Positions 1 through 44,600 of a stretch of DNA of 64,000 nucleotides are shown here, in pieces. The notes below the pieces were generated by a model. The model saw only the letters and a program-made list of their open reading frames with translations. It was not told where the DNA came from and did not search any database. Position 1 is the stretch's first letter. The number at the start of each line of letters is the position of its first letter. Source of the DNA: Isoetes taiwanensis (taxonomy: Eukaryota; Streptophyta; Lycopodiopsida; Isoetales; Isoetaceae); the NCBI GenBank assembly GCA_021234155.1, contig JAJEKV010000094.1:3330535-3394534 (forward strand), read 5' to 3'. Position numbers and translations under genes: made by a program.

Positions 1-9
1 CACGAAGAA

Positions 10-45
10 GAGGAGGAGGAGGAGGAGGAGGAGGAGGAGGGAGGA
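10..45. repeat. (GAG)n microsatellite
   Basis: An uninterrupted run of AGG/GAG triplets at the window edge, followed by a short T-rich stretch. It is a purine-rich simple repeat with no open frame that looks coding. Confidence 0.9.
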
Positions 46-213
46 AGAGGATGAGGAGGAAGGTCGAAATTGACCCGGTTTTTAGAATAGGTGAGAGATG
101 AGCCAGGTTTGCATGTCTGTTTTATTTTTTTTTTTCACCTTTCTTTCTTTTCTAACACCTTTCTTTCTTCTTTGTTCGGGCGTGGAAGATCAATGATCTA
201 GGATCCGGTGCAT

Positions 214-266
214 CTTGTAAAAGCCGGGCATTTTGTAAAGCCGGGCATTTTGTAAAAGCCATTCTT
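214..266. repeat. short tandem repeat, 18-19 bp unit
   Basis: Two and a half copies of a unit containing GCCGGGCATTTTGTAAA lie head to tail. Nothing else in 46-900 is recognisable. That stretch is AT-rich, with TTTTCTTCA-type low complexity and a T-run near 610. Confidence 0.7.
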
Positions 267-909
267 GGCATCTGTACATATCAATTTTGAATGAAATCAA
301 ATAGTTTTCTTCACAAACTTTTTCTTCAAAGCGGTTTTCTTCAAGCAGTTTTTTACGTACATAAAAATATTTTGAATGAAATCAAAGCTGTTTTCTCAAA
401 CATTTTGTCTCCAAAGTGTTTTCTCCAAAATTTTGTCTGCATTTTGTGTCAACAAAGTCTAGGGAACACTATAAATCAATCCGCAGCGATATAGGAAATT
501 TTCCTATCGACCTAAAACAATTCCCCAACTCAACAAGTCATTTTTTAGCCTTGATAATTTTGCCTTTAAAATTATTTTTAATTTAGCCTATATAAAATTT
601 CGAAATTCTTTTTTTTTTTTAGAATGCAATGAATGGAATAAAATGCGGTGAGAATTTATTGCATGAAATGCAATATTCTCCATATATACCATATACATGT
701 CATGTAATGCGGGGAAGACCAGATGCGGTGGCGTGTTAATTCAAGCAATCAATTATTCCACGCTAACTTATTTCTAATTGTGCCTATATAAATCCATTTT
801 ACGCTCTCAAAGTTCCTACATTTTCTTCCTTCCTTCATACGATTTGCGGTTGCGCCTGGCGTGTTTGGATCCATGATCCCGAAATCTTGGTGGCGATTTA
901 TATTCATCA

Positions 910-1218
910 ATGTTAGATGTTTGGTTTACGGCAATTCCTAACTTACTAAAAGACTCCGCCTTTTGTTACGTAGCATCATCACGTAGCGAGGACATCGGAG
1001 ACTTCGAATTAAAACCAAAAGCGAGAGGACTAATCTGCGAATCGAAAAGCCTCGGAATTAAAACCACAAGCATCTATCCTCCTTCCGACCTCGAACTCAA
1101 GGTTAGTTTTCATTTAGTTTTAAGTATCATCTCAATGGCGGGTTTAATCCAAGAAGACAAGCTTTTGCATTTGCTTTCGGCGGCGGATGATGTTTATTAT
1201 AAAGAAAACCCGGAATAG
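910..1218 (+). other. possible exon pair of an unidentified gene
   Basis: An open frame of 102 codons. A GTTAGT splice donor near 1102 follows a polar stretch ending DLELK. A second block, starting GLIQEDKLLHLLSAADD, ends at a stop. Composition is protein-like, but no family is recognised and no clear acceptor was located. It could equally be a chance ORF. Confidence 0.25.
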
Positions 1219-3720
1219 TTTTTATAAACTTCATACGCTTCTTTTGTCAGTAAATTCTTGAGTTTCTCTTCCTGAATTAATCATGCTATTGCATGCAAGT
1301 TTCTATTATGAATGTGTAGTAGAAAGCATTAGAAAAATCTGAAGATAATATTTGAAACACGCTAAAGCGTGTTTTAGGGATAATCTTAGCCTTCAACATG
1401 AATACACGCTCGTGTGCATTCGTGAGGAGGAGAAAAAAAAAAACATGCGGATAGATAAGTAAATAGATAAAGGCCGGGCAATTATTTACAGCTCTTTGAA
1501 TGCTACTTCTTCCCCGGCGTGTATAGTTTTCCTATATAGCGGTTTACGGCGTGCAAACAATTGTATCCCTACTTTCAACTTTTTACGCTAAACCGCGGGC
1601 GTGTCTCTTGAGTTTCTAAGTTTATAAATAAATAAATATAACCGCCCGGCGTGAATCTTACGATACTCAAAGCTCACTTCCTATTGATAGATGCGGGTTA
1701 CATTAATCACCGGTTGGTGGCGAAGATGGATTGGAATTACATTTGGGCCCGGCAATCACCGCGGCCGACTCGGTTTGGCTCCAATCTCGGTCGGGTTGAA
1801 CCTTGCGGCGAGCACCGGTTCGGTTTGGAGCACCCGATCTTGCAACCCACAGGAGTACTTGGATCAAGTAATGATGATGGCGGCGAGCGCGGGGCAATGA
1901 TAGATCACGGGCTCACGGGGCCCTTGCAATCGCCGCGGAGGCTGACCCTCTTATCTAATCACTTCGAGAATCACGGTACATGCATTGATCGAGAGTGAAT
2001 CTACATCCGTCATTTCGAGATTCAAAATGAGGAGCTGCGTTTCTTAGTGGTTAGCCTCTATGCGGATGCCCCAACCACGAACCACTACCACAGGCGGTAT
2101 CTGATGCAATGGAGATGGCTCAACCAATGGAACCACTACGCGGGCGCTATCTCGATGCATTGGAGGTTCAACCAATGGAGGCGGGGAGGTGGAGCGGGGA
2201 GGAGGCGGGGGAGGTGGAGGTGGAAGCGGTAGGGGGTGGTGGAGCTAGAGCACAGTGTTTTTCTTTGGGGTTTTACGAGGAAGAATTCACTATGCCTGCA
2301 ATGGAAATGGGAGTATCGATAGCCCGGCTACTCGATGGGCTGGGCTTGAAAGCGATGATGCAGGGATTTTGTGCGGTTTATCCGGTTTATCCGATTATAT
2401 ACAATTGTAATCTTTTTTCCAATGAATACAACAAATTTTGTCTACTTCTATATTTCTACAATGTAATACATGTTACATACCTTTTTTAAGCGGTTTCTTG
2501 GCCATGCAACAAATGTTCCAACACTTTCTCCAGCAGAAGTATCCCCACCGGTGTCTCTGCGAGGTAAAGCTTCATCCATAGCGCGGCCCGATTAATCAAC
2601 GTAACTTCGGACATACTTATCCCAGGCGGAATTCCATGACGGTTCTGATCCGGATCGATGGAGTCGATCTTGCATAATCCTACTTTCCTTTTTCGATTTG
2701 TAGTTAACATGAAACATTCATCTTGACAACTGCTTGAAAAATTGCTATTCGAACACCTACTATTGGAAATTAATGTTCAAGCTATTGGAATGAGATGAGT
2801 ACGAGTTACGTAGCCATTCTTGAGAAGCTGATTTGAGTCTCGAAGCTGATTTGAGAAAATTTGAAAGGCTATGGAAACTCTTCTGTGGTCGGGAAAATTC
2901 GAATTAGAAGAAAGATTAGGTTAACTTCGTTTAAAGCGGGGATAAATTTGGCGGGATTTTAAAAACTTAATGAAAGAAGTCGGCGGACGGGTCTTCGTCA
3001 TTATTATTTGTATGTGTCAAGAATATTTCGAAACTGCATTTTGTGTTTTCTTGAAATTCAAATTTCTCTATTTCGCGTTCAGGTAGAAAAAGCTATTTCT
3101 TGGCGGCTCGGCGTATCCGGCGACCTTCCGGCTCTGTTACTAGGCGACTCGGGAGATGTCTTCTAAAAGCGAATCGAGGTCGAGCCGGGCCCCAGGCGGA
3201 GAGGCGGTGGAAGAGGAATCTCTAAACCGGCTCTTCTCAAGTTTGAGAGGGCGTTGATCGAGAATACCACGAGAATACCGCAGAACCCTATTCAAGGTAT
3301 TTAATTTGCCACAGAATACACACTTTGTGTGGAGAGTATTATGCTTGCATGAATTTGAGATATTTCCTTTCACTTAATATGCTTTGCATGAGTTTGAGTT
3401 ATTATGCTTTGCATGAATTTTAAGTATTAACATCAGTTAATGCTCTGATTGTCCGTTCTGTAGAACATAATTTTGCTCTGTTTTATATATAGAATATAGC
3501 GGTGTTAGACAGTTGGAGATAGCAATGTTCAATGAGGTTAAATAGTGTGAAATATGGATTCATGAAGGGTATGTAGCTTAAAATGTGGATGCAAAATAAT
3601 TTAGTTTCAAATTAGCATAGCATGGTCAATAATGGAGATACCAACAACATGCCAAGCGTGATTTGTACTAATTTAGGTTTAAATGCATGGCGTGATCTCT
3701 TGTTACGAAAAGTACTCTAA
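1219..3720. other. no recognisable gene; GC-rich island at 1650-2300
   Basis: Most of this stretch is AT-rich and featureless. From about 1650 to 2300 the GC content rises visibly, with overlapping ORFs on both strands (for example 1651-1998 and 2109-2489 on +). None has a recognised domain. CAACCAATGGA-type words recur at 2120-2185. A hairpin with arms AACACGC and GCGTGTT lies near 1355-1375. Confidence 0.4.
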
Positions 3721-3724
3721 AAGT

Positions 3725-4890
3725 GCTCATCTTCATTTGCGGTGCTCAAGAGGAAGAAAACCCTACTAATTGGGTTCTAATCCTGCCAAAGAAAGCAAGG
3801 GCGACCGACCCAGATCACGGTACCATATGATCTCACCTTAGATGATGAAGGGCCGATTCTTATAGCAACCAACCGACCACTGCACATACGAAGGAAATGG
3901 GCGAGGGTGCGAGTGAATGCGTTGACCTTGCCAAGACAAATGGCAAGCTCGACTTAACTCTCTTCGAGGAAAAAGGAAGCGGAACAAGATGGCCAAACAA
4001 AGGGATCCTAATCTCTTGTGAGGAAGAGGATGACACCAACGCAAATTGCTCTTGGAGATTACCGAAGCGAAAGAAAGATCTGCTTTCGGACTTACTCCTT
4101 TGTAGAGCTCTTGCATACAAGGATACGTTCATGAAAGGCCGGATGTGAGCGGTGAGACATGTTTAAAAGTATGGTTGGCCAACCAATGTAGCGATTCACG
4201 CCAATATCTATTTGCCAAGGGGTTCACGGTATGCGTAGAGGCATGTTCACTAAGCCGACACCAAGTCACTATTTGCGGCAAGCTAGGGAATTAGCTGACT
4301 TGAAAGCTTCTAAAAGGGTCCTAGATCTAGGGAAGAATGTTCAACTGCGGTTATGTCGAAGGCATGGAGGCTTACATTTTGAGAATGAGCGGGGCAGTGG
4401 CGCACTAGAGGCCATGAACAAAATAGAATAAGCGGTGACCATTATCCATTGGGTCTTAAGGAAACTTTTGCGATCCATGTGAAGTCCCTCATCCGTTCAC
4501 CAAGCTCCATTTATGTTAGCGAGGAGATATGATCCGGCACATGCCATGGAGATTGTTGAGCATGATTAGTAATCGGGTCAAATGCCTATGCCCGGAGGAT
4601 GTGCTACCTTGGGATATGATCTCGAACAAGCTGCTTTGTGTGGGCCGAGCGTCCAGGAGCTATTATCAAGTGATGATATTAAATATGTCATCATCGGCGG
4701 GCAACATTCCGTTGAGGCACAAAAGGCCATCATCGGTGGCGGAAACAAAGCGGGCCAAAAAGTGTTCTACAATCACTATGCGTTATAGGAGGTGTATTAT
4801 CTTGGATGCCAATACTTCACTGCAGATTTGGCTGAGATTAGTGCAACTTTGAATGAAATGGGGAAGACATTTCTATACAAAAGGTAATCA
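3725..4890 (+). pseudogene. copy A, part 1: ParB/DGQHR-like segment of a three-part gene
   Basis: Broken frames on + read as one protein. A block near 4450-4510 resembles a ParB-type opening (FAIHVKSLIRSPSSIYVSE). Then comes a block ending IKYVIIGGQHSVEAQKAI (about 4670-4730), like the GGQHR/DGQHR motif of ParB-fold proteins. A further block, near 4840-4885, contains LNEMGKTFLYKR. Frames change several times and stops occur, so this is a remnant. The domain reading rests on motif resemblance only. The two later parts follow downstream on the same strand. Confidence 0.35.
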
Positions 4891-5165
4891 ACCTGGTTTC
4901 ATAAATTGTATTCCGCCCGGGCGTGCTTTCAAATCAAACCAATTCCGCGCCCGTGTTTTGAAATCAATCAATTCCGCCCGGTGTTTTCAAAGTCAACCAA
5001 TTGATTTGAAAACCGCTGGCGTATTCCATTGATTGAAAACGCTGGCGTGGTTGGTTTGACTAACTGCGGCGTGAATTGCATAATAACTTTATTCATTTCC
5101 GCGCCCGGTGATTTTTCTCTTCATCAATTCTATTCAAATCCGCCCGGCGTGTTTCTATTCTATGA
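4890..5165. repeat. degenerate tandem/inverted repeat cluster with CCCGGCGTG core
   Basis: Five or more imperfect units of about 30-40 bp carry AATTCCGCCCGG or its relatives followed by GCGTG and TTTGAAATCAA. An opposite-facing unit (GATTTGAAAACCGCTGGCGT) occurs near 5003. The cluster lies between coding blocks of copy A, probably within an intron. The same core recurs at 1515-1655 and 7228-7380. Confidence 0.5.
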
Positions 5166-5439
5166 TCTTTGATTCAATATGCGTACTATTGCGGTCCATC
5201 GTTGAACAAGCTGCATACGCCCGTCAGCGATTGGGTGGAATATGGCTGCCCATTGCCCACCGGGCAGGCGGGTCAAAGTCTGAGCATTCAAAGGCTCTTT
5301 GGAGGCGGACTACATGCATGAACAATTATCTGAGGAGAAGAAGAAGCGCAAGAAAATCAAAAGAAAAAGGTGGTGATGACATTGCGGATCCTTCCGAAAA
5401 GCTCATCCAGTGGTCGGGACCAACAGACTTCGTATAAGA

Positions 5440-6880
5440 TTGTGTTTTGTAAGGAGGCGGTATGGCTCAAAGTGGAATGAATGCAGGGCGCTTATGCACA
5501 AGGGAAGCTGCGGATACTATGGGTAGGGTGCCTCCCTGTTGATGTAAGCATCTTTGACTTGAATGTGAGAGATGAGAAAGACTTCGGGGGGGCTGGCAAC
5601 GTATTTGAGACCATTTGGGTTTTAGACCGGTTAGCAAGAAGGAAGTCTTATACAAGAAGGGTGCTTTCACCAAGGATAGGATGTCCTTAGTTGAGTCTTT
5701 GCGGACCATGTAAAGGATGTCACGTACAATGAAGTCATTTGTAGGAGCCGAGTTACAAAGGCTATCGGGGGGATGTGGCATTATCTGAAATTGGATTCTT
5801 TGGACAAATACAAGGTCGGTAATGATGACATCAAAGTTTATATTCTGGTCAAAGGACTTCCTAAAGGGTGGAAGGCTAAAAATACAAAACATAAGGAGAC
5901 TCTACCCCTAAAGGTACTGGCTGAGTTGAGAAAGAAAAGTGGCCCTTGTGAAGAAGATTCTTGGAGAAGGCGACCTTTGTCCAGTGTTGATCTCCATTGG
6001 GTACAAAGGTCTCTTGCCAGATTCAACTTCTGGCCTTAAAAATATATCACTCTTTGTGTTGGACAGCAGGGGTGGGAGAGGAGATATGGGCATGAACCCG
6101 GAAGGACTACGGTAGCTTCTTTACCAGGTTTGTATAGGATTGACAAGCTGAGAGGTCCTTCACTATTGTCATCGTTTGTCCTTGGTGAGTCACATCTGCA
6201 TGCACTATCTGCTGCTCATGATCTGGAGTGCCTCAAAGTTATTAGGGAGGGATGCCTAATATATGATGTTAAGGATAATGAGCTGCGAACAGAACGGAAG
6301 ATGGCACATGTGATCTTTATTATGATATCCATCTTTGTCGGGGCGAGGAATATGATATTACTAAGGCCAAGGGGTGACAATAGCGGTGCATGGGAATGTT
6401 TTCTTCTAGATGATCGGACTTAAGAACTATATTCTTTCATACGGATCGGGATCAGTCGGAAACAGGGATGAGTCGAGAAGAGGATGAGGATCGGGACCCC
6501 CTCTAAGTGGGGAAATCAAGTCTGAGCTACAAACTAAGGAGAAGGGCCCCTTAAATAAAAATGGATTTCCCGTCCTATGGCTGCTTACCTCGTCGAGGCA
6601 TTTGCTCCAATTGATACAACCTGCTTGGAGCTTCATGTTGGAGGTTATATTGCAGAGGCTCTTATGGGTGCAAGAAGATGTCAACTGCTTTGTGGTGATG
6701 AGCAGGCCAAAGACTTTCTTGAACCATTCCTCATGCATGTGCTTGCCAAGTCTCCTAAAGGCCCTTATGGCAACCTGAAATCATCAGCAATCAAAAGTCT
6801 ATTAGACTTGTCCAATTCGAAAGTGGGCGTTGCTCACGGAGAGGGAACTAGTAATCTGCAGCGATAAGGAAAGCATTAAT
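5440..6880 (+). pseudogene. copy A, part 2: DNA-methyltransferase-like segment
   Basis: The frames at 5481-5690, 5773-6039, 6130-6423 and 6577-6867 are fragments of one reading. The last block (about 6580-6760) aligns with copy B at 19590-19760. It carries TTCLELHVGGYIAEAL, then RRCQLL and GDEQAKDFLEPF. That order resembles the motif-I region of N4/N6 amino-methyltransferases: a T-x-L-E-L strand, a Gly-Gly turn, then A-L..RRC..D..Q. A DPPY-type motif IV was not found. A block near 6290-6340, in shifted frames, reads YDIHLCRGEEYD. Stops and frameshifts make it a pseudogene. Confidence 0.4.
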
Positions 6881-7224
6881 GAACAAATAGCTGCTAAACT
6901 GGTTGCTCAAAGGAAATCTTTGTGATGGCGGCCAACTTAGGGAATATCCTTGCCCACATTGCGGGTGATGCAAGCAACAATAGAGTAGATTCACGGTTTA
7001 ACAATGAAATAATTGGCGGGGGAACCCGAAAATGAAGGCAGCAAGGCGGCTCTAGTGATTCCACAGGTTTGCCAAATCAATAGTAAAATAATGTCGGTTA
7101 ATGTGAAGGGCCTTGGAACTAATAGAAAATAACAATTCTAACGATCGGAAGAAGGCGAAGATTAAGGGTGGCGGAGGGAGAATGGCCGCCGATGGCGCCT
7201 GTGGCCGAAGATGATAGGTATGGC

Positions 7225-7395
7225 CTTGCCGTGAAATGAAATAAGCGCCAGCGTGATTTAATTTGTATTACCTTTGAATTAAATCGCGCAAAGCGTGCTG
7301 ATTATTTTTAGTTGTCAAACTAAATCGCGCCGTAGCGATTTGGTTATGACTATTTTCAAATCACGCTTGGCGTTTGTATTGTTTGTGTTATCGTA
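7225..7395. repeat. AAATCGCG/CGCGATTT palindromic words
   Basis: Several short inverted motifs (TTAAATCGCG, AAATCGCGCCGTAGCGATTT, AAATCACGCTTGGCG) lie between the methyltransferase-like and phosphatase-like parts of copy A. They share the GGCGTG core of the 4.9 kb cluster. An intronic repeat is likely. Confidence 0.4.
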
Positions 7396-7439
7396 TCTTG
7401 CTGACCGGATACATGTTTGATGTTTTCACTTCCATTGCG

Positions 7440-8072
7440 TTTCTAAGAAGGTTGTGGTGTTCGACCTAAGCGAGGTCCTTTGCAAGACTTTTCCGAAAAA
7501 TAAAGTGGCTAGAAAACGGTTTCATCGGACACCGTAGAATCAAACACCAAGTGGATCTATCAGCGCGCACTTGAAGGAGATGCTAGGCGAGGCATTCGGG
7601 TTATTTCGAGTTGGTATTTGGTCATCCATGGAACTAAGGAACATCAAGGATACTTTGGAGGCAATTTGGGGAAATCGCGTAGAAATTGGTTGACCCTTTG
7701 GGATCGAGAACAAATGTGTGAAGTTCACTAATCCCAAGGATCCAACGAGCAAAGCCTATCTTCATCAAACACTTGAGTAACATGATGGAGCCGAACTTGG
7801 TATCGAGAATAAGGATGATATAATCATAGTGGATGATGATGCTCTCAAATGCTTCTACAATCAAACCACAGGCCACGAATCCACCATCTTACGATCCAAA
7901 AACTTTGGGACAGATGATTTTTTACGTGAAGTTTGTGTCTATTATGCATAATTTGGCTATGGGGATGTGATTGGGTGAAGTGTTAGATTAGTGCCCAGGC
8001 TGGATAGAACGGTGACATGGAACCACACCTTGTTAAATACGTGGAAAAACATGGATTGATCCCTTAATGTTT
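7440..8072 (+). pseudogene. copy A, part 3: FCP1/HAD-like phosphatase remnant
   Basis: DNA here aligns with 20285-20905, the phosphatase part of copy B. VVVFDL (about 7450) matches the catalytic strand. WSSMELRN (about 7620) matches WSSMEHRN. VDDDALKCF (about 7830) matches the acidic motif IV block. VEKHGLIP then stop (about 8045-8068) matches KKGLVPP then stop. Several 1-2 bp indels destroy the frame. It is an older or more damaged paralogue of copy B. Confidence 0.65.
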
Positions 8073-8272
8073 TATTGGAATATATGATATTTTTGTATGA
8101 TATTTGTGCCATGTATCGATAATTTAGTCACGGAATTGCCTGCCATAAATAATGCAATTTGTTATTATCAAACCTAATATTATCATCTATTGAGCAAGCA
8201 ATATTTGTCTCATCTATGTTAGCAACTTGCTCTTCATTTACGCATATTTCAATTCATATGAAAAGTCACCGT

Positions 8273-8405
8273 GAATCGCAACCTTATGTTATTTTTGAAG
8301 TCAAAAAAAGATTAAAAAAAAACAAAAACCCCTAGAAGACAATAGCGGGTTGGCGTGATTTTGGAGTTGACATAATCCCAATTTAATTGGATGATGGTTA
8401 TTGGG
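8273..8405 (+). repeat. 3' flank shared with copy B
   Basis: The segment around GGTTGGCGTGATTTTGGAG and CCAATTTAATTGGATGATGG resembles 21085-21150, downstream of copy B. The duplicated block therefore runs past the stop codon into the 3' flank. Confidence 0.5.
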
Positions 8406-13741: not shown

Positions 13742-13884
13742 TCTTGGTAGCCTTTTAATATTTGGTTATTGTGTTTGGTGATGGGGCCTAGTCCCCAGGT
13801 TTTAGATGGGTTGTTGCCCTTGCATGTGTCGTCCCATAACCCGTCGGGTTCCCGTGGACGTAAAAATTCATCTTATCTTATCTT
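13742..13884 (+). mobile_element. SINE-like or LINE-tail element with (TCTTA)n tail
   Basis: A sequence with GATGGGGCCTAGTCCCCAG, GTCCCATAACCCGTCGGG and CCCGTGGACGT ends in TCTTATCTTATCTT. The same module, with variations, occurs at 40343-40460 and (5'-truncated) at 48773-48833. A simple-repeat tail and variable 5' truncation are hallmarks of target-primed retrotransposition. No convincing pol III A and B boxes were found. It could instead be the 3' end of an unrecognised LINE. Confidence 0.55.
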
Positions 13885-14105
13885 TTTACACCTCATCAAT
13901 CCTTTGTTTTTTTGTCTTCTTCTTCTCCATAACCAAATTTGTCTTTTTGTTTAACAACTAACACAACTCAATATGGGCCCTTGGATTCTAACAACAAGCA
14001 CAAATGAATCTATACCCATGATCTTCACCCCCCTCCCCCCCCCCTTTTAGACCTTGATAGTGTTCTTCTATGTTGACCCCGATTTTGCCAAAAATCGGGT
14101 CAACA
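13884..14105 (+). repeat. dispersed repeat, copy 1, right part with terminal hairpin
   Basis: Matches 19229-19450 (CACCTCATCAATCCTTTG, TTCTTCTTCTCCATAACC, ACAACTCAATATGGGCCC, a C-run). It ends in an inverted repeat at 14071-14105 with arms TGTTGACCC and GGGTCAACA around a short loop. The hairpin marks the end of similarity between the copies and is probably the element terminus. Confidence 0.8.
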
Positions 14106-18869: not shown

Positions 18870-19450
18870 TGCACGAAAATGGAAAGAATGGAAAAATGGA
18901 CGCATGAAAATGGAAAGAATGGAAAAATGGACGAAAATATGGACGAAAATTTGGTAACACAAAAAGAGACAATATGGAGAACGGAAATAAAAAAAGGAAC
19001 AATAGAAAATGTATGGGAAAATAAGGAGGGTGCACCACTTTATTCAAGAAAATAATATAAAACATTGCTTCAAGAGGGAAGAGGTCTCTGACACCATCTT
19101 CCCAGGGCTGCCACTACCCTTGCTCCATGTGAGATTCTAGATCCAAGAGCAGGAGAACAAGTCCCCTCAAGATATTTATAATTTTTCAAACAAATCTTGG
19201 ACATCCATGTGTCATCGTCTTGGCACTCCTTTTTTACACCTCATCAATCCTTTGTTTTTTTGTCTTCTTCTTCTCCATAACCAAATTTGTCTTTTTGTTT
19301 AACAACCAACACAACTCAATATGGGCCCTTGGATTCTAACAACAAGCACAAATGAATATGGACCCTTGATCTTCACCCCCCCTCCCCCCTTTTAGACCTT
19401 GATAGTGTTCTTCTATGTTGACCCCCATTTTGCCAAAAATTGGGTCAACA
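18870..19450 (+). repeat. dispersed repeat, copy 2 (uninterrupted)
   Basis: This is the continuous counterpart of 11740-12105 plus 13884-14105. The joint corresponds to 19224-19229. It starts with tandem AAAATGGAAAGAATGG words at 18875-18945. It ends at 19450 in the hairpin 19416-19450 (arms TGTTGACCC and GGGTCAACA). Coding sequence of copy B starts at the next base. Confidence 0.8.
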
Positions 19451-20905
19451 GTCTTCTACAAAGCAGATGATGAGGAAGAAGCGAATGAAAGCCAGGAATT
19501 TGATGTTCCTGACCTCTACTGGAAAGACATCACTCTGGAATTGCTGACAAAGGAAAAGGGGCCCTTGAATAAACATGGGTTTGCAATCAATCTGGCAAGC
19601 TATCTTGTTGAGGCATTTGCACCACTTAATACCACTTGCAGTGAACTTCATGTTAGAGGGTATATTGGAAGAGAAGCCCTGAAGACATCAAGAAGATGTT
19701 TAAGCTTCATCAACGATGACCAGTCCAAGGATTTCCTTGAAGTGTTTTTCGAAAAGGTACTAGCCACGGCTGATTGGGGTCCTGTCAAAGATAAAAACCC
19801 GTTGGCTTTGGTACCTTACAAAGGACAGAAGCAGACTACTAGTTCACAAAAGCCTCCAATTGCAACTCCAGAATGTTCAAAAAGCAATGCAACCCCTGAG
19901 GAGAAGGCCGCAATGCTAGCGCGGGAACGTGAGATCATGGAGCAAAATATGGAGTCCATGCTTGGTAATATTGCAACTGGTAATGTTACACTTGGGGGTA
20001 CGACTACGGTAGTTCCTGATACAAGCCAGGATGATCATGCAAGCTTAGATTCAACCACTGAGGTTAGGAATCAAAACCCTGTGGTAGCTTTCATAGAAGA
20101 GAACGTGTCCGAACTAAACCGTGGAGTTGATGCTTCTGGCAGTAAGCATCCGGGGAGAGAAGTAGACGCTACGACTGCCGGGGATGACAACGATGATGAA
20201 AGGTAATTCACGGCTTGTAGTGCAGACAATTTTTGTATGGCTAACTCTTTGTTTTCCATGGTTTAGGCCTCCACCTGCTTGTGACAAAATCATTGTCTTC
20301 GATCTGAATGGTGTCTTGTGTAAAACATTTCCTAAGAAGCTTATTAGCAGGGATGACTTCGAACAAGTCCCTCTAGAATCGAATACTAAGTGGATCTATC
20401 CTCGCCCACACTTAGAAGATATGATGAATGAGGCATTCAGATTGTTTCGAGTTGCCATCTGGTCCTCAATGGAACACAGAAATGTTGATGAAGTACTGAG
20501 GGTGTTACCAGGCATGAATCGAGATTTGTGACGATTTGGGACCAAAGTAAGTATATAAAGTTTCCACATCCAAGAGATCCGGATGGCAAACCGGTCTTCA
20601 TGAAACATCTTGGTACTATGATGGATCAGCGTGGCATTCAAAATAAAGAGGACATCATAATAGTAGATGATGATGCTCTTAAGTGCTTTTATATCAAAGG
20701 TCAGGCTCTAAATCCACCAGCTTATACTCCACTAGATTACTCAACAGATGAGTTTCTAGTACTATTCATGTCCATCATGAGTGGCTTGGCTGCTAGTAAA
20801 ACGATATCAGATGTTGTCAAAACATATCCCGAACTAGATCGGACTAAGGAGATGGATCCCTATCTTGAGAGTTATTTGACAAAGAAAGGGCTAGTCCCTC
20901 CATGA
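19415..20905 (+). CDS. copy B: methyltransferase-like plus FCP1/HAD-like phosphatase protein, 5'-truncated
   Basis: Exon 1 is 19415-20202 and exon 2 is 20267-20905. The GT-AG intron joins codons as DER-PPP. Residues 1-12 come from the hairpin of the upstream repeat, so the original N-terminus is missing. About residues 60-110 carry YLVEAFAPLNTTCSELH, RGYIGREAL, RRCLSF and DDQSKDFLEVF, resembling the motif-I half of an amino-methyltransferase. The Gly-Gly turn of copy A (VGGY) is RGY here. A polar linker with a basic/acidic helix (EEKAAMLAREREIMEQNME) follows. Exon 2 opens with KIIVFDLNGVLCK, the FCP1/HAD nucleophile strand, with Asn at the second acidic position as in some plant FCP1-like proteins. 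IIIVDDDALKCF (motif IV) follows and the end is KKGLVPP. One frameshift near 20510-20530 splits exon 2. The fold assignment is firm for FCP1 and tentative for the methyltransferase. Confidence 0.6.
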
Positions 20906-41829: not shown

Positions 41830-44600
41830 CGGTCTGAAAAAGAGAAGGCGTGAGAGAGCAAGAAAGAGAGTAAGGGAAGCCGAATTGAAGGAAGAGGACA
41901 AAGAATTTGAAGAGAATGTTTTCAGAAAGAGAAGAAACAACAAATCCGAGGTTGATTGCGACCAAGCTAATGAGGTATGTCATAAAGTTTCAAAGAATGA
42001 GAGGAAAGAAGTTCTTCAAGGTCTTTGCTAAGTTCTTTGCCAAATTTGAAATGTTAAAATTGAAAGACGTAGACACAATGAGAAAGATAGTTAACAACCT
42101 CAAGAATTCTCTTGCAAACCATAAGCATGTCAGATCTACTGATGTACTTACAGCAAGGACCTCGGCCATGGTATATGCTGTTGTCCCAGGCACTAATTGT
42201 TTGGGAACTTCCAAGTGCCTAAACTTGAATAGAAGATATGTGACAACAGCAGTTCAGAGGAGAAAAACAGCAGAAATTGGTGATGGCCCATGGTCAATGT
42301 TCAAAAAGAAAACCAGATCTGATAAACTAAGCAGAAAACAACAGAAATTAGTAATTGATTTTTGGACTCATCAGACCCGAGTGTCACCATGCAAGAAACA
42401 TGTTATTAAGATTAGGCTTGGCAAAGGAAAGAAGATAATGCATGCTCTACACTTCTTGGAAGAAACTGAGGTTGGTTTTTTTCTTTTAAGTTTATAATTC
42501 ATTTGTTTACAATACTAATGTGCTTGTTACTTTTAATGCAGTGTTCTTTTTATGCTAGTTTTCGAAAAGAATATCCAAAATTCGAAGTTTCATTCTCAGC
42601 TTTTCGTGCACTGAAACCTCCATTTGTTCGAAAAGTAAAGGACAGGGAGACTTGTTGTTGTGTGTATCATATGAGACTAGATTATGTTAGACAAGCACTA
42701 AACAAGATTAGGTTGGATACAAAGATTCATGGTGCTGATTGTAGTTGTACTTGTTCTGTTTGTGGTGCTGGAGCAAAGTGTGAAGCTAATACTAAGACCT
42801 ACAAATCTTCAAGTGATTTGTGGAGGTCAATTGTATGTTCAAGGACATTGCTTGATGAGTGGTATACTCATAATTGCATGTTCTTTGAAATGCACTGCTT
42901 GTGGCCCATCTAAGTTACCTATGTGTCCAAAAAGAATTAAGCAAAGTACCTTGGGGCATTTAGTAGATTGAAAAACTTTTGATAGGGTGGGTGATGTACA
43001 TTTCCTTTCTGATTTTGTGATTTATTAAACTAATCATTGCTTTGCTTTTAGGTTTATGAATCAGCAAAAGAACCTGATGGCAAAGGTGGGACAAAGGTGG
43101 TTCCAAAGCCCGTTTGTGAAGCTTTGGTATACAAGGCGAATTCAACAAACAGATTTGATGTCATATGCTAAAAATATTTTAAATGAATTCATTCCCCATA
43201 ATTATGAGGCTAGATGGCGAGCAAAACAATTGTAGATTGTTTAGGCACTTTCCCGAGAAAAAACAAAGGTGGTATCTGTCATTGATTTCGCTGAAAACTA
43301 TACCTTCAAGATACAACAAGAAATCCAAAGCTTACATTGGAGAAATGACCAATGCACAATACTTGTGCACATCACTTATAGGCATGCAACTGCAAAAGAG
43401 GTGGAGGATAATTCATTATGCAAAGGTGATAGGAATATCATCAAGGAGACACACTTTTACATTTCGGATGATAGGGAGCATGACACCTTGTTTGTCCAGC
43501 ACTGTCTTAACAAGCATGCTGATTACTTGGCCAACAAGGAAGTCAAATACAACAACCATATAATATGGTCAGATGGCTGCTCATCTCAGTTCAAGAGTGC
43601 AAGAAATTTCTATTTTCTTGGTAGATTTTATAAGGTATCGGGCATTCCAATTCACCTGGAACTACTTTGCATCATATCATGGAAAAGGTAAATTCCAATG
43701 TCTCATTAAAATTGGAATCAAAAACATTAAAGATAGTTGTTTGTTACCTTGCGGGGGGAGCATGATGGGGCGAGGGCTGTTCTCGAAGAGAGCACTCACG
43801 CATGAAATGTTGAAAAGAAATTCCAAACCTTTAAGAAATGCCCGAGGCGTTGTTCAATTCGCACGAGCACTTCAAAGATTCGACAAACATAGATGCATAT
43901 GTTAATGAAGAGGCTAGCATACCGTCTTTCTTTGTACCAACTGCATACCCGATCTTCTTTGTGGTAAACATTACTAAGCGTAACAAACTATTAATTGTTT
44001 TAGGTACTTTTGGGAGATAAAGATTGATGAAGTAAGCGAGTTGGCGGTTTGACTGCTACTTTATCGAGTCTAGTAAATTCCATAGCATCGGGCCGATAAA
44101 CTCCAAGGATGCTACTCAAGTTGCACATATGAATTACTCGTGCTTTTGTCATGATTGTTGGTTGGGTAAAATGCGGTAAGTGCATAAACAAAGATAGAAT
44201 AGGTACACGGACTTTTTTAAATTAAGACCGGGGGATTCAAGATGATCTTGCACTTGTGGATGGGCGGTCTATGAGGGGGGATCTTTGAGTGGAAATCGAG
44301 ATATTATTGATGTAGGGGAGAACTTTGCGTGGTTGCTCCAGTGAGATAACAAAGAGAAGGTTGACTTCTACATCTTAAAGTGCACTATACCTAAGCATGT
44401 TGTAGAGAAGGCCTACAAAGACCCATGGGGCCAAAATTTGGGAGGAGGGAAGTCGTTGTGACAGGGCAAGTTTTATAAAGCGGTAGGGACAACAAATATG
44501 AGCTGCTTGAATATGAGCCAGACTGCGGTGTTTATAGCCACACGTTGTGTCATGCAATTTTGAAATGAAAGATGTGGGATGTAATATGTTTGAATTGGAA
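41830..44600 (+). pseudogene. decayed gene of a conserved transposase-like family (WSDGC signature)
   Basis: Order on +: a basic Arg/Glu-rich start (41830-41990). NHKHVRST...GTSKCLNLNRRYVTT and FFxDHQT-like WTHQTRVSPCKKHV run to a donor at 42470. The next exon, from 42542, has FYASFRKEYPKFEVSF, ALKPPFVRKVKDRETCCC, YHMRLDYV and CSCTCSVC. An exon from 43052 leads to VSVIDFAENYTFKIQQEIQS, YISDDREHDTLF, WSDGCSSQFKSARNFYF and WNYFASYHGKG (donor 43687). Then come a GEHDGAR-like block, RNSKPLRNAR and FCHDCWLGKM. The repeated Asp motifs (VIDFAEN, WSDGC) look like a DDE-type catalytic core, and the CCC-x2-H cluster like zinc ligands. At least six frameshifts and stops are seen. The family is recalled as widespread and multicopy, and its function is inferred. 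Confidence 0.6.

Follow-up and report, generated by a model that had tools for sequence, protein, structure and literature searches.

What kind of gene joins a ParB-like part to a DNA methyltransferase-like part and an FCP1-like phosphatase part in a plant, and does it belong to the host or to a mobile element? The question is raised by a 64,000 nt stretch of the Isoetes taiwanensis genome (positions 3330535-3394534 of its contig; hereafter, the window), which carries such a gene on the plus strand near its left end (copy A). A sequence-only reading of the window had left open whether the gene was a domesticated DNA-modification or chromatin factor or cargo of a mobile element. Searches of the genome (1,658,258,908 bases in 1110 contigs) show that copy A is the accessory (passenger) gene of a DNA transposon, and that the related elements carry arrays of short palindromes that are specific to each group of elements.

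Copy A lies in a decayed copy of a 12,269 bp transposon, which starts 3.9 kb before the window and ends at base 8399. The portion within the window (1..8399) is collinear with the L010/L021 copy; the 5′ end is in L020, the region upstream of the window. The element is bounded by terminal inverted repeats (TIRs), with 29/31 columns identical in the window copy. The 3′ TIR (CCCAATTTAATTGGATGATGGTT; 8377..8399, minus strand) shows one mismatch to the 5′ TIR (AACCATCATTCAATTAAATTGGG) and is followed by the target site duplication (TSD) ATTG (8400..8403), the second copy of which stands directly before the 5′ TIR. Both of the copies with both ends located have 4 bp TSDs (ATTG and AATA); the 5′ TIRs of two others (L008 and L012) were absent from the 7 kb fetched, and these copies are outside the count. 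A TSD of 4 bp is also found in the Sola1 superfamily. Upstream of the window (L020), the element carries another gene, in the opposite orientation, with reading frames related to a DUF7869-type gene, and the corresponding gene fragment of L021 matches DUF7869 at 9.4e-30. The plan of the element is a minus-strand DUF7869-type gene lying head-to-head with the plus-strand accessory gene, and from this position the former is likely to be the transposase. The Pfam label of DUF7869 is 'domain of unknown function', and no mention of DUF7869 was found in the open-licence literature searched. A Helitron or a retroelement was considered as the carrier, because of a helicase-like frame in L007 and an integrase-like frame in L008 (both seen by eye), but either is disfavoured as the mover by the TIRs and the sharply defined 3′ end. 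The genome holds 9906 rough DUF7869 candidates, which has the appearance of the transposase of a very large element group. The L021 copy is itself interrupted by a Gypsy-like element (identified by eye).

The reading frames of copy A are interrupted by many frameshifts and stops, and it is a pseudogene. Its exons were placed by tblastn using exons of sister copies as queries, and all lie on the plus strand: a decayed ParB/DGQHR-like exon (3672..4884; L008 exon as query), with the motif GGQHS at 4696..4710 read in copy A itself; a middle exon carrying the first half of the methyltransferase-like part (5535..6073; alignment A1); a second methyltransferase-like exon with a degenerate motif I (6247..7114); and a NIF/FCP1-like exon (7421..8064). 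A genome search with the GGQHS region, in which the best 150 of 1855 rough candidates were scored, gave matches far above chance. Nine 10 kb regions were cut, six with long open ParB-like frames, two with the NIF of another family and one with a host-like NIF gene. The six copies chosen for long open frames (L007-L012, subfamily A) are open for 406 or 407 codons in the ParB-like part and show variants of the motif (DGQHS in L008, L010 and L012; DRQHS in L007; DVQHS in L009; EGQHS in L011), and the order ParB-like, methyltransferase-like, NIF/FCP1-like is kept in sister copies. The motif, the strand and the order of parts that had been read from the letters alone are thus borne out, as is the proposal of a single gene, with the qualification that its methyltransferase-like part is degenerate.

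A second subfamily (B) was recovered by scoring the best 150 of 2389 candidates, and its methyltransferase-like frames are open for up to 644 codons. It is represented in the window by copy B, which has, on the plus strand, a methyltransferase-like exon open in one frame (19448..20202), a phase 2 GT..AG intron (20203..20266) and a NIF exon with a frameshift (20267..20904). The splice sites of this intron are common to the window copy, L025 and L028. At the same place in subfamily A, among three copies with both sites found, GT..AG is kept in L008 and L010, and the AG is lost in L012. Copy B had been regarded as proof that the last two parts belong to one transcript; the conserved intron suggests that the two exons are indeed joined by splicing, an argument from conservation and not proof from a transcript. 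Between subfamilies A and B, the proportion of synonymous differences (pS) is 0.73-0.88, mostly saturated, and that of nonsynonymous differences (pN) is 0.23-0.39, in all three parts, showing that all three evolved under constraint. Within A and within B, the ratio of nonsynonymous to synonymous substitution rates (dN/dS) is 0.31-0.93, as expected of copies that decay after insertion. A near-identical repeat (95%) at 13883-14105 and 19231-19450 ends, in its second copy, where the frame of copy B starts, which may mean that a further insertion has cut copy B.

Related elements carry methyltransferases with intact motifs. A genome search with N6_N4_Mtase (best 150 of 1444 rough candidates scored) gave a top match of 3.0e-17, and four loci (L016-L019) were cut as family II. 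The plus-strand gene of family II joins a ParB-like part (GGNHSFKARRQL) to a methyltransferase with the motifs ADLPYG (ADIPYG in L017) and DAFSGSGTT, matching the Pfam profile at 2.1e-17 in L016. Against PDB, the family-II methyltransferase profile finds the adenine methyltransferase CcrM (3.6e-10), aligning with PDB 6pbd over profile positions 53-297; unlike CcrM, the family-II enzyme is joined to a ParB-like part and is transposon-borne. The opposite-strand gene contains DUF7869 (1.3e-51 in L016 and 1.1e-52 in L018, with a match also listed for L019), and L017 retains just a piece of it. When the best 150 of the 1444 methyltransferase candidates were compared with the best 150 of the 9906 DUF7869 candidates, 24 pairs were found within 15 kb of each other, against 0.4 expected under uniform placement, and 22 were head-to-head. 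The association was also tested forwards. Three loci picked from the DUF7869 list by score and open frame, all outside the 24 pairs (L032, L033 and L034; group IV), carry an opposite-strand ParB-methyltransferase gene and a palindrome array in 3/3 cases. Methyltransferase motifs IV and I are present in L032; in L033 and L034, motif IV only was seen. The methyltransferase and transposase exons of family II have dN/dS values of 0.05-0.08 when distant pairs are compared, and the sole close pair gives 0.23. Upstream of the ParB part, the accessory proteins of L016, L018, L019, L032, L034 and L037 share an N-terminal block; by eye it is possibly chromatin-reader-like, one frame scanned (L016) gave no Pfam match, and subfamily A has a similar-looking block.

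How well the three parts of the A/B family can be named differs from part to part. The sequence-only reading had pointed to the ParB, N6_N4_Mtase and NIF profiles, and of these only NIF (PF03031) passes its Pfam cut-off in this family, with 57.8 bits against 21.8 for the L010 exon of subfamily A (1.4e-15) and 56.3 bits for subfamily B. The NIF exon of L010 (A), L025 and L028 (B) reads DLNGVL. The catalytic motif of NIF/FCP1 phosphatases is DxDx(T/V), and the change to DxN makes phosphatase activity doubtful. No PDB chain was matched by the NIF exon of subfamily B at 0.01, or by profiles A3 and A4 even at E 10. For N6_N4_Mtase (PF01555) there is no profile match in the A/B family, and neither a DPPY-like motif IV nor an FxGxG motif I is present. 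The presumed places of these motifs are taken by LFVLDxR in the middle exon of sister copies (alignment A1) and by ELHVGGY (6628..6648 in copy A; ELHVRGY in copy B), which both alignment and profile comparison set opposite motif I (DAFSGSG in family II). The block singled out as resembling motif I therefore does align with that motif, but its catalytic residues are gone, and with both motifs replaced the family should not methylate. A whole-genome search with the ParB profile PF02195 gave no match (2 candidates scored; weak matches may escape such a search), and there was none in exon 1 of a sister copy. Weak matches of the ParB-like exons of A or B were to DndB (0.0027 and 0.0018) and PHROG ParB (0.12), with DGQHR at 0.087 for subfamily B; those of the ParB-like part of family II were to TIGR03764 ParB (0.0082), PHROG ParB (0.018) and DUF6551 (0.019). 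The ParB-like core of B gave no Pfam match and that of A no NCBIfam match, and L017 gave no PHROG match.

Each of the three groups has a different palindrome. That of family II, GTGTATTCCGGAATACAC, occurs in many perfect copies spaced mostly 41-42 bp apart; that of subfamilies A and B, (AAT)CACGCCnGGCGTG(ATT), is often repeated at 32 or 42 bp, and since other spacings also occur, helical phasing is suggestive only. The group IV palindrome, CGGTATRAATTYATACCG, is found between the two genes and behind the ParB exon. Family II arrays lie between the genes in L016, L018 and L019, and in L018 and L019 also in the intron behind the ParB exon. Those of subfamily A follow the ParB exon; L007, L010 and L012 have them before NIF as well, and further sites lie scattered upstream. 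Genome counts far exceed those of the reversed patterns (2585 exact palindromes vs 0 for family II, 2137 vs 1 for A/B and 4476 vs 0 for group IV). The decayed element of the window retains five sites, one of them before the window, where 0.03 would be expected, and there are none in the other 59.7 kb. The four within the window (consensus TCACGCCnGGCGTGA) are at 850..864, 1640..1654, 3647..3661 and, before the NIF exon, 7361..7375, each with 3 mismatches.

The specificity of the arrays was assessed in 16 loci of 10 kb (9 A/B, 4 II and 3 IV), cut before any locus was picked by palindrome, allowing up to 3 mismatches. There were 176 own-group sites (104 A/B, 35 II and 37 IV) and 9 foreign ones, all of group IV and all at 430-1632 of the A locus L011. 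These precede the A-like part, which starts at 2222, and adjoin a match to a group-IV N-terminal exon (5e-14); they belong to an adjoining fragment of a group-IV element. In the ten loci with listed coding blocks, 112/116 sites were not wholly within such blocks. The exceptions are a palindrome within the ParB-exon frame, close to its upstream end, in L008, L010 and L012, and one in a frame of L018; the real exons may not include these stretches. The palindromes alone also lead to the elements, as both regions picked in this way hold element parts beside the array. L038 proved to be an element of the A type, its array directly following the ParB exon. In L037, a group-IV-like transposase and an opposite-strand N-terminal accessory exon (4e-42) flank the array.

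These observations can be explained, with a probability of roughly 0.55 for the explanation as a whole, if the accessory protein reads the palindrome arrays of its own group and its effector has been exchanged in the A/B family. The ParB-like part would bind the group-specific palindromes between the genes and in introns, and so recognise the element's own DNA. In groups II and IV, the CcrM-type domain would then methylate bases at the bound element. In the A/B family, the catalytic motifs would have been lost and the FCP1-like domain joined on as a replacement effector; the NIF-bearing complex might influence transcription, through RNA polymerase II or its partners for instance, instead of marking bases, and this is the weakest step. 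The element might gain by regulating its own expression or by evading silencing by the host. In ParB-parS partition, the element that encodes a ParB-like protein also carries clustered palindromic sites, and the group-specific palindrome clusters near the ParB-like genes of Isoetes are alike in this respect, the reader role being here a prediction from sequence. It can be suggested, tentatively and at somewhat less than even odds, that transposon self-recognition follows the plan of bacterial partition: a ParB-like DNA-binding protein, which may be nucleotide-gated, and a parS-like array would deliver to the element a base methyltransferase in certain groups and, in others, an FCP1-like effector that works on transcription, with protein and palindrome changing together from group to group. 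A role in segregation is unlikely.

Several points weigh against the proposal that the accessory protein reads its own arrays. The Pfam and NCBIfam matches behind the ParB label all fall under the curated cut-offs, and a NIF domain with DxN for DxD may be inactive. Scans with profiles A3 and A5, using two short patterns per scan, gave no ParB-like relative in viral contigs, and A5 gave none in bacterial and archaeal genomes. Sites were gathered by similarity to a consensus, which inflates the apparent conservation of the palindromes, i.e., the agreement by column of 71-100% in 42 family-II sites (62-79% for the three flanking bases on each side and 29-55% farther out) and of 73-98% for CACGCC and GGCGTG in 104 A/B sites. 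The stretch cut at L037 holds no ParB or methyltransferase exon; on re-examination, both L037 and L011 fit the proposal. Profile comparison provides a weak link between the A/B family and family II, with E 0.024 for the ParB part and 0.021 for the methyltransferase-like part (6247..7114 in copy A) when trimmed to cores, and 0.15 and 0.08 untrimmed, the trimming having been decided after the first result was known. With no curated ParB or methyltransferase profile passing, both labels might be wrong, and the gene might encode some other transposon protein with NIF at its end, without kinship to the sister families and resembling them by chance. This is distinctly improbable, given that the crossed control comparisons gave 0.37 and 0.7, that both matches fall at the expected motifs and in the expected order, and that the DndB, DGQHR and PHROG ParB matches coincide on one spot. 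The A/B family and family II also agree in the order of parts and in the head-to-head arrangement of the two genes, and their opposite-strand genes are related; this indirect evidence for a putative kinship is better than the direct evidence, which is weak.

The arrays might instead be binding sites of the transposase, comparable to the subterminal repeats of CACTA elements, with some other accessory role for the ParB-like gene. The transposase is equally group-specific (51-54% identity between II and IV, and 65% between two IV copies), and the ParB core has diverged to a like extent (54-59% and 69%), so that divergence cannot tell which of the two proteins tracks the palindrome; in groups II and IV, moreover, one array stands between the two genes. 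On the other hand, the arrays are internal and are found in the accessory gene's introns as well, and none was noted beside the TIRs. Two NIF-bearing loci with another transposase-like gene (L013 and L014) have no ParB-like match better than E 0.2 and, like the host-like NIF gene (L015), none of the three palindromes. Transposase sites are, on balance, a rather unlikely account of the arrays. That the gene is a domesticated host chromatin or DNA-modification gene, duplicated by chance, would agree with the purifying selection that the comparison of subfamilies shows for each of the three parts, but constraint within transposon lineages explains this as well, and the TIRs, TSDs, linked transposase-like gene and many dispersed copies, some of them broken, make domestication very improbable. 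It is the other option of the sequence-only reading, cargo of a mobile element, that is best supported by these features.

The basic kind of gene is already known from algae. Sola1-1_Ec32 of the brown alga Ectocarpus (PMC12477816) is likewise a large DNA transposon with an accessory gene of ParB-like and N4/N6 methyltransferase parts opposite the transposase; its host differs, no NIF part is mentioned in the portion of the paper available, and the word palindrome is absent from the main text. The algal ParB-methyltransferase proteins were suggested, in that portion, to bind and mark their own element, with no target named (PMC12477816). Phage fusions of ParB and N6_N4_Mtase, described in the accessible part of a survey of the ParB-CTPase fold (PMC12704722), likewise combine the two folds, whereas the Isoetes genes are eukaryotic, have introns and reside in DNA transposons, and the A/B family differs further in its degenerate methyltransferase and NIF domain. 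Transposons reported to carry TET/JBP or DNMT genes (PMC12730594, PMC5890265) are likewise mobile elements with their own DNA-modifying enzyme, of other enzyme classes and element types. Among the matches listed from the open-licence literature, no report was found of the palindrome arrays, of the NIF fusion or of a land-plant case. As far as searched, the arrays with their group specificity are the foremost new feature, next to the presence in a vascular plant and the fusion of NIF to a degenerate methyltransferase. The arrays provide a candidate target, one per group, for self-binding by the ParB-like protein; the system is extended to a vascular plant, and the A/B family suggests that its effector is exchangeable. 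If the proposal is correct, a transposon would be able to distinguish its DNA from the host's, and the elements might be one origin of N6 or N4 base methylation in a plant, which is a matter of dispute.

The two loci with the other NIF, L013 (G000:C1033:3010000-3019999) and L014 (C1044:3859500-3869499), represent a third family that is multi-copy and transposon-like, with a NIF part of its own (DVNGVLAQT or DINGVLAQT). Downstream, on the opposite strand, is a different transposase-like gene (SDGYSSQFK..HGKGEHDG), a piece of which, from L014, gave no Pfam match. With NIF present in this family too, two types of element may each have acquired the domain. A fragment of the third-family transposase-like gene (49% identity) is found in the window at 43269-43793. 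The window also contains two pairs of repeats, 91-97% identical, at 39395-39606/48562-48772 and 40389-40856/48772-49211.

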